Shown one piece after another: positions 44,746 through 47,150 of a stretch of DNA of 64,000 nucleotides. Position 1 is the first letter of the stretch. Every line of letters starts with the position of its first letter. The notes under the pieces were generated by a model. It saw nothing but the letters and a program-made list of their open reading frames with translations, did not search any database and was not told where the DNA came from. The position numbers and the translations under genes are program-made. Source of the DNA: Microterricola viridarii (GTDB taxonomy: Bacteria > Actinomycetota > Actinomycetes > Actinomycetales > Microbacteriaceae); the NCBI RefSeq assembly GCF_900104895.1, contig NZ_LT629742.1, positions 186,001 through 250,000 on the forward strand, given 5' to 3'.

Positions 44746-45728
44746 CGCCGCGCCTCCTCGGTGTCCCCCTCGGCAGTTGCCCCGGCATCCGCCCCGTAGT
44801 GCCGGAGGAAGAGCTCCTCCAGCGACGGCGGGTTCACCGTGACGCCGGCCACGCGCAGCTCGGCGAGCGCGCCGAGCACCCGCGGCATGTCGTCGCTGTC
44901 GGCGGTGAAGCGCACCCGCCCGCCAGCGCGCACGAGCTCGTGCGCCGCGGGGATGCGGGCCAGCTGCTCCGGCGTGACCTCGCCCGCCTCCCCCACCGCG
45001 GCGAAGGCGATCTCGGTGCGGGTGAGGTGCCGCAGCTCGGCCAGCGTGCCGCTCTCGACGGTGCGGCCGGCGCGGATGATGCTCACCCGGTCGCAGAGGT
45101 GCTCCACCTCGCTCAAGATGTGGCTGCTGAGCAGCACGCTCGCCCCGTCGCCCAGCTGCAGGGCGATCTGCTCACGGAACACCGCCTCCATCAGCGGGTC
45201 CAGCCCCGAGGTGGGCTCGTCGAAGATGTACAGCTCGGCCGGGGTGGCGAGCGCCGCGATCAGCGCGACCTTCTGCCGGTTGCCCTTCGAGTAGGTGCGG
45301 GCCTTCTTCGACGGGTCGAATTGGAAGGCGGCGACGAGTGCCTCCCGCCTCGCGGCGTATGCGCGCTTGTCGGCGTCGCCGCCCCGCAGCCGGGTCAGCA
45401 GGTCGATGGCCTCGCCGCCGGAGAGGTTCGGCCACAGGCTCACATCGCCCGGCACGTAGGCGATCCGCGCGTGCAGCGCGGCCGCATCCGCCCAAGGGTC
45501 CTGTCCGAAGACGGATGCCGAGCCGCCGGATGCCCGCATCAACCCGAGCAACACCCGGATCGTCGTGGACTTGCCGGCGCCGTTCGGCCCGAGGAAGCCA
45601 TGCACCTCGCCGCGGGCGACGCTGAGGTCGAGGCCGTCGAGCGCCGCCACCCGTCCGAAATGCTTCTGCAGACCCCGCGTCTCGATCACAGGGATCTCAC
45701 CGACCGGGGTGTCCGTCACCGTGCTCAT
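44742..45728 (-). CDS. ABC exporter ATP-binding protein
   Basis: 328 residues. Walker A GPNGAGKSTT (about 49-58), Q-loop region AYVPGDVSLWPNLSGGEAID, signature TYSKGNRQKVALIAAL, Walker B LYIFDEPTSGLDP and H-loop SSHILSEVEHL are all present. A C-terminal DUF4162-like extension ends with SLEELFLRHYG. It powers the permease gene it overlaps. TAGCGT lies seven bases before the ATG and no ribosome binding site is evident, so its message may be leaderless. Confidence 0.93.
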   Translation of the reverse strand: MSTVTDTPVGEIPVIETRGLQKHFGRVAALDGLDLSVARGEVHGFLGPNGAGKSTTIRVLLGLMRASGGSASVFGQDPWADAAALHARIAYVPGDVSLWPNLSGGEAIDLLTRLRGGDADKRAYAARREALVAAFQFDPSKKARTYSKGNRQKVALIAALATPAELYIFDEPTSGLDPLMEAVFREQIALQLGDGASVLLSSHILSEVEHLCDRVSIIRAGRTVESGTLAELRHLTRTEIAFAAVGEAGEVTPEQLARIPAAHELVRAGGRVRFTADSDDMPRVLGALAELRVAGVTVNPPSLEELFLRHYGADAGATAEGDTEEARR

Positions 45729-45800
45729 ATGCGTGACGCTACGCCGCTCGGCGGCCACCGGGCAGAATTCTGACGAATTCCTTACGGCCATCGCGCGCCC

Positions 45801-45806
45801 TAGGCT
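45801..45806 (+). promoter_or_regulatory. Putative -10 of the MATE gene
   Basis: TAGGCT ends six bases before an in-frame ATC. Its own TAG is an in-frame stop, so the coding region cannot extend further upstream. The spacing matches a dozen other genes in this window. Confidence 0.5.
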
Positions 45807-45812
45807 CGGAGC

Positions 45813-47150
45813 ATCACTCTCTTCCGCCGCCGCCCCATCGATCGCGAGATCCTGCGCCTCGCCGTGCCCGCGCTCGGCGCGCTCATCGCCGAGCCGCTGT
45901 TCCTGCTCGCCGACTCCGCGATGATCGGCCACCTCGGCGCCGTGCCCCTGGCCGGCCTCGGCATCGCCAGCGCCGTGCTGCAGACGATCATCGGGCTCAT
46001 GGTGTTCCTCGCCTACAGCACCACCCCGGCTGTCGCCCGCCGGCTCGGTGCCGGCGACGAGCGGGGGGCCGTGGCATCCGGCATCGACGGCCTCTGGCTC
46101 GCCAGCGGCCTCGGAATCGTGCTGGCGATCGCCGGCTGGTTCGCCACACCCTGGCTGGCCGGGCTGTTCGGCGCCGAGCAGGCCGTCACCGAACAGGCCG
46201 TGATCTACCTCGGCATCTCGATGTTCGGCCTGCCCGCCATGCTGCTGGTCTTCGCGGCGACGGGCCTGCTCCGCGGCCTGCAGGACACCCGCACCCCGCT
46301 CTACGTCGCCGGCTTCGGCTTCGCCGCCAACATCGTGCTGAACTTCGTCTTCATCTACGGGCTCGGGCTCGGCATCGCCGGCTCGGCGATCGGCACCGTC
46401 GTGGCGCAGTGGGGCATGGCGGCGGTCTACCTCGTGGTCGCCGCCCGGCACGCCCGGCGCGTGGGGGCCGGGCTCCTCCCGCACCACGCCGGCGTACTCG
46501 GCGGCGCGGCCTCCGGCGGCTGGCTGTTCCTGCGCACGGTGAGCCTGCGCGCGGCGATGCTGCTCGCGGTGTTCACCGCGACGAGCCTCGGCTCCGACGA
46601 GCTGGCCGCCTTCCAGATCGCGATGACCCTGTTCGCCACGCTCGCCTTCGCCCTGGACGCCCTCGCCATCGCCGCCCAGGCGCTCGTCGGCAAGGGCCTC
46701 GGCGCCGGCGACACCGCCAGTGTGCGCGCCGTGCTCGCCCGCTGCCTGCAGTGGGGCATCGGCGGCGGCGCCGTGTTGGGCCTGCTCGTGATCGCGGCGA
46801 GCGGGGTGCTCGGCCTGGTGTTCACCAGCGACCCGGATGTCGCCGGGCTGCTGCCGCCGGCCCTCATCGTGCTCGGGCTCTCTGTGCCCCTCGGCGGGCT
46901 CGTCTTCGTGCTGGACGGCGTGCTGATCGGCGCCGGCGACGCGCGCTATCTGGCGCTCACCGGCATCCTGAACTTCGCCGTCTTCGTGCCGCTCGCCCTG
47001 CTCGTGCAGCAGCTGGCGATCCCGGATGCCGCGGGCCTGGCCTGGCTGATGGCGGCGTTCTCGTTCGGCTACCTCGGCGCCCGCGCGATCACGCTGGGCC
47101 TGCGCGCCGCGGGATCGCGCTGGATGGTCGTCGGCATGACACGGGCCTAG
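45813..47150 (+). CDS. MATE-family efflux protein (DinF-like), probable ATC start
   Basis: 445 residues if translated from ATC 45813; the first conventional start is GTG 45864 (428 residues). Twelve membrane helices and LFLLADSAMIGHLGAVPLAGLGIASAV mark the MATE family. The DinF-like family normally begins with a DREILRLAVPAL segment, and this is encoded upstream of the GTG (PIDREILRLAVPALG). No ATG, GTG or TTG lies between the in-frame TAG at 45801 and 45864. The protein exports drugs or metabolites using an ion gradient. Confidence 0.85.
   Translation: MTLFRRRPIDREILRLAVPALGALIAEPLFLLADSAMIGHLGAVPLAGLGIASAVLQTIIGLMVFLAYSTTPAVARRLGAGDERGAVASGIDGLWLASGLGIVLAIAGWFATPWLAGLFGAEQAVTEQAVIYLGISMFGLPAMLLVFAATGLLRGLQDTRTPLYVAGFGFAANIVLNFVFIYGLGLGIAGSAIGTVVAQWGMAAVYLVVAARHARRVGAGLLPHHAGVLGGAASGGWLFLRTVSLRAAMLLAVFTATSLGSDELAAFQIAMTLFATLAFALDALAIAAQALVGKGLGAGDTASVRAVLARCLQWGIGGGAVLGLLVIAASGVLGLVFTSDPDVAGLLPPALIVLGLSVPLGGLVFVLDGVLIGAGDARYLALTGILNFAVFVPLALLVQQLAIPDAAGLAWLMAAFSFGYLGARAITLGLRAAGSRWMVVGMTRA

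Follow-up and report, generated by a model that had tools for sequence, protein, structure and literature searches.

A candidate leaderless AUC start codon conserved in a MATE transporter gene of Microterricola and related bacteria

The transporter gene and its promoter region

The window, which is the whole stretch of 64,000 nt that was analysed, covers positions 186001-250000 of the 3.84-Mb single-contig genome of Microterricola viridarii and contains a MATE family efflux transporter gene. The product scored 281.8 bits against TIGR00797 (cut-off, 147.4) and 162.3 bits against Pfam MatE (PF01554), and its closest relative was a protein of M. pindariensis with 98% identity. The reading frame was intact throughout, with zero internal stop codons. 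The features of the region are listed below in window coordinates.

45736..45741, minus strand: -10 element TAGCGT of a divergent ABC-transporter ATPase gene, with ATG at 45728 and a spacing of 7 nt; TAGCGT-7-ATG is kept in congener G001
45801..45806, plus strand: -10 element TAGGCT, read from the sequence; in 5/5 genus genomes, TAGAGT in most Cryobacterium
45807..45812, plus strand: six-base spacer CGGAGC before the predicted transcription start; in the genome's conserved leaderless genes, the commonest spacing is 6-7 nt
45813..45815, plus strand: ATC, the predicted mRNA +1 and start codon; 5/5 Microterricola, GTG/ATG at the corresponding sister-genus position
45813..47150, plus strand: MATE family efflux transporter gene, 445 aa counted from the ATC; TIGR00797, Pfam MatE
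45816..45863, plus strand: N-terminal codons (TLFRRRPIDREILRLA) 5' of the first standard start; synonymous excess, alignment to solved MATE homologues
45864..45866, plus strand: GTG, rejected as the start; first of the standard start codons; GTA in L009 and L010; CTG, CTC, ATC, ATT or GTA in various Cryobacterium

The window reads TAGGCT CGGAGC ATC ACT CTC TTC CGC CGC CGC CCC ATC GAT CGC GAG ATC CTG CGC CTC GCC GTG. The TAG at 45801-45803 shares the transporter's reading frame and doubles as the stop codon that closes it upstream, TAGGCT ends exactly six bases before the in-frame ATC, and the stretch from the TAG to GTG 45864 is free of in-frame ATG, GTG and TTG codons; all three points had been made in a sequence-only reading of this DNA and are directly visible in the letters. 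Neither the window sequence nor the variation in relatives revealed a Shine-Dalgarno sequence 5-9 nt before ATC 45813, and GGAG at 45808-45811 stops one base short of the ATC and is missing in Cryobacterium. The gene thus has a -10 element 6-7 nt before its predicted start codon and no Shine-Dalgarno sequence at a functional distance, as leaderless genes do, but not the ATG or GTG at +1, a codon choice that experiments in M. smegmatis give as a rule and that does not define leaderless genes in all phyla. The neighbouring ABC-transporter ATPase gene, whose start region lies at 45726-45741 on the minus strand, is an ordinary conserved leaderless ATG gene, so that the intergenic region would hold two leaderless promoters back to back.

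Leaderless starts in the genome and the ATC codon in relatives

Approximately 0.84 Mb of the M. viridarii genome, sampled in stretches, was compared with the matching regions of congener G001, giving 454 orthologue pairs in two samples (216 and 238). Conserved TAnnnT elements preceded a conserved ATG or GTG by 6 nt in 53 pairs (26 and 27) and by 7 nt in 12 (7 and 5), with at most a few pairs at each of the other distances from 0 to 14 nt; TAGGCT was the most frequent conserved -10 hexamer in the first sample. This modal spacing exceeds what chance would give and indicates that -10-N6-7-RTG is the standard leaderless plan here and that the transporter has the same plan with ATC for RTG, and it agrees with the earlier remark that a six-base spacing is found at many ATG/GTG genes in this DNA. 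Conserved leaderless ATG or GTG starts were found in 65 of the 454 pairs, CTG or TTG never occurred at the leaderless start position, and a convincing ATC was limited to the transporter, with no second case among the 454 pairs, suggesting that leaderless ATC use is gene-specific. One other gene start, near 2,873,988 on the minus strand, had the arrangement TAAACT-7-ATC; it was rejected as ordinary because ATG directly follows the ATC, which is at the same place in G001 too.

TAGGCT-N6-ATC was common to all five Microterricola genomes, comprising that of the window and four others (locus L008 was compared as its reverse complement). In congeners G001 and G003, an in-frame TGA with a single codon between it and the ATC closes the frame again, the codon corresponding to GTG 45864 reads GTA, and the next ATG, GTG or TTG lies 23 or 36 codons past the ATC; GTG 45864 therefore cannot be the general start. 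The arrangement extends to about 30 Cryobacterium species, in which a -10 element is followed after 5-7 nt by ATC (ATT in one); the element in Cryobacterium and Glaciibacter is TAGAGT (or TAAAGT, TAGTCT, TACTCT), with the ATC at 5-7 nt. ATC was present in 40 of the 41 distinct related loci tested and ATT in the remaining one. A third genus contributes two genomes (L102 and L103) with TAGCGT-6-ATC, and ATC occurs singly in L063 (Herbiconiux sp. SYSU D00978, TAGGCT-7-ATC), L138 and L146. GTG or ATG is found 6-7 nt after the -10 element in Plantibacter, Okibacterium, Mycetocola, most Herbiconiux, Subtercola, Humibacter and Microbacterium telephonicum; the sequence-only reading had proposed looking for a standard codon at this place in orthologues, and sister genera indeed have one at the equivalent +1 position. 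A hidden sequencing error, which that reading had named as a way in which it might fail, is excluded at the ATC since many independent genomes agree.

The 150 rows compared, duplicates included, comprised 53 with ATG or GTG, 55 with ATC, one with ATT, one with ATA, none with TTG or CTG, and 40 without such an arrangement; some rows had a spacing of 5 nt between the -10 element and the codon, which counts against a leaderless start. After deduplication, 19 distinct loci were devoid of ATG, GTG and TTG between the upstream stop and codon D+4 or beyond, counted from a conserved D; as in infC-type genes, these strict loci conserve an AUH start and offer no standard codon in its stead. On a quick protein tree, from which short loci were left out, the distribution of ATC takes seven or more gains or losses, for the most part at the level of whole clades; related genomes share history, and species counts are not equal to independent events. 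In the same tree, a MATE gene (L093) on a contig labelled Sporosarcina beigongshangi groups with Arthrobacter and is probably contamination of that assembly.

Several loci depart from the common pattern. Some Cryobacterium species have GTG, ATG or TTG three or four codons past the ATC, which counts against an ATC start there, and in these species the start may have been relocated. One Cryobacterium subclade (L018, L021, L022, L025 and L031) has ATG or GTG four codons past the ATC and may have reverted to a standard start preceded by a short leader. In L142 (genome G012), the equivalent site reads TACGCT-7-ATA, and the sole standard codon nearby is a GTG directly before the conserved D; the ATA is possibly another AUH start.

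Coding character upstream of GTG 45864 and the choice of start codon

Codon changes were counted along a minimum spanning tree of 32 distinct loci in which ATC or ATT lies nine codons before the conserved D. Codons -8 to -2 had 29, 13 and 45 changes at codon positions 1, 2 and 3, respectively, and 28 of the 68 codon changes were synonymous, whereas 2000 simulations gave 14.1 on average and never more than 24. The stretch between the ATC and the conserved DREI motif is thus very likely translated, judging from its pattern of substitution, which sustains the earlier claim that family-conserved coding sequence extends upstream of GTG 45864. Further into the gene, 13 nonsynonymous and 107 synonymous codon changes indicated purifying selection. 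Alignments to MATE relatives of solved structure begin at query residue 3 (HvAACT1), 8 (the PfMATE group) or 10-13, and GTG 45864 is residue 18. Special conservation of the C in ATC 45813 was not shown, since ATC also predominates among the gene's remaining Ile codons. None of the start codons at the 41 distinct loci had turned into ATG, for which one C-to-G change would suffice, and G occurred in at least one species at 69 of the 74 fourfold columns with a majority C; this weakly suggests that ATG, a stronger start, is avoided at the transporter gene (approximately 7% by chance).

Our preferred reading, to which we assign a probability of roughly 0.8, is that the transporter mRNA is leaderless and begins with a conserved AUC start codon, its 5' end and first residue being predicted from comparative sequence data. 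The position and spacing of the ATC, its conservation, the coding character of the adjoining codons and the absence of another candidate are plain from the sequence and the comparison. The same view of the ATC in the sequence-only reading gains support from the conservation in the genus and Cryobacterium and from the loss of the GTG in two congeners. Translation from GTG 45864 on a short-leadered mRNA, with the upstream conservation incidental, would make use of the first standard codon, one that many relatives also have; it is nevertheless very unlikely, because this codon is GTA in two congeners and various other codons in several Cryobacterium, has no Shine-Dalgarno sequence at a suitable distance, follows codons that evolve as coding, and as a start would remove residues that align with solved MATE structures. 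The coding signature also reaches upstream of CTG 45852 and ATC 45837, and a start at one of these or at another non-standard N-terminal codon (CTC or ATT) is highly improbable: CTG 45852 is not conserved, and ATC 45837, although frequent in relatives, is replaced by GTT, GTG or GTC in G004, L020/L059 and L034.

The two other alternatives leave the ATC in its place. Transcription might begin some bases upstream and yield a short-leadered mRNA that is still translated from the ATC, given that infC exemplifies leadered ATC use and that the -10 element was assigned by consensus alone; we consider this unlikely, as no Shine-Dalgarno sequence lies 5-9 nt from the ATC and the spacing from the -10 element is the leaderless one. 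It is also conceivable that the start has decayed and that no functional protein is made from the gene in these species, in keeping with the inactivity of ATC at +1 in M. smegmatis reporters (PMC4633059), but a frame that is whole, intact and under purifying selection makes this scarcely credible.

Predicted initiation and comparison with known systems

If the leaderless AUC reading is correct, transcription from the TAGGCT element would start at A 45813 and produce an mRNA without a leader, and ribosomes, probably whole 70S particles as for other leaderless mRNAs, would start at its 5'-terminal AUC. The ordinary initiator tRNA would serve, its CAU anticodon pairing with the first two bases of AUC and mismatching the third; a pattern search in which the first anticodon base was left free gave no unusual initiator tRNA and only two CAU copies per genome. 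The protein would then begin Met-TLFRRRPIDREILRLAVPAL... and be 17 residues longer than that predicted from GTG 45864, and start prediction restricted to ATG, GTG and TTG would truncate it in many genomes. The AUC start is probably weak and may lead to low expression that is sensitive to IF3 and to 70S availability. Since IF3 disfavours leaderless mRNAs as well as non-canonical sites (PMC9031893), an IF3-sensitive start of low output is naturally expected. A leaderless AUC acting as a throttle or as an IF3-sensitive control is plausible; that it is a selected regulatory device coupling the efflux pump to the stringency of initiation (IF3 level and 70S availability) is doubtful. If such coupling existed, the pump would be made when normal initiation is disturbed, for example by ribosome-targeting compounds, and the link would be IF3, which many of these bacteria themselves make from an AUC start.

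In M. smegmatis, only ATG and GTG initiate at +1, where ATC served as a negative control, and ATC behind a Shine-Dalgarno sequence has low but detectable activity; in a mycobacterial selection, all but 547 of 343,242 reads had ATG or GTG at +1 (PMC4633059). According to a 2017 survey, leaderless mRNAs appear to require AUG, and its reconstruction of start codon changes in 36 genome groups lists no switch from AUG, GUG or UUG to AUC (PMC5622118). A review of leaderless translation makes no mention of AUC (PMC9031893), and our search of the open-licence literature turned up no leaderless AUC start described as conserved in Actinomycetota. The transporter gene resembles the mycobacterial leaderless genes (PMC4633059) and the Deinococcus-Thermus genes with a -10 motif (PMC12340547) in having TAnnnT about 6-7 nt upstream and no Shine-Dalgarno sequence, and differs from both in that its first codon is ATC. 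It is a natural and phylogenetically deep candidate counter-example to the AUG/GUG-only rule from actinobacterial reporter assays, and a concrete test case for how ribosomes decode the codon at the extreme 5' end of a leaderless mRNA and for a weak start as a conserved control.

Among the infC genes sampled in Micrococcales (L096-L100 and L216-L245), a Shine-Dalgarno sequence is followed after 5 to 7 nt by ATC, or in a few cases ATT, and the neighbourhood usually lacks a standard codon; AUC is a start codon in use in the order. The infC gene of the five Microterricola reads TAG ATG GAG ACT CGC ATC ACC GAT CCC CGT, and its start is uncertain because ATG directly follows the TAG, four codons before the ATC. 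The infC gene of E. coli is described as having a weak AUU start with autocontrol (Butler 1987, as cited in PMC9845219). The transporter gene is like infC in that an Ile-type codon is kept as the start, with reading by the initiator tRNA and sensitivity to IF3 expected; infC, in contrast, has a leader with a strong Shine-Dalgarno sequence and encodes a translation factor, whereas the transporter gene appears to be leaderless. The DnaA protein of Deinococcus reportedly starts from ATC, a finding said to come from N-terminal proteomics by Baudet in 2010. That too would be an ATC start where leaderless mRNAs abound, although in another gene and another phylum. Compared with other MATE transporters of TIGR00797, the product is a full match to the family, and the start codon alone is unusual.
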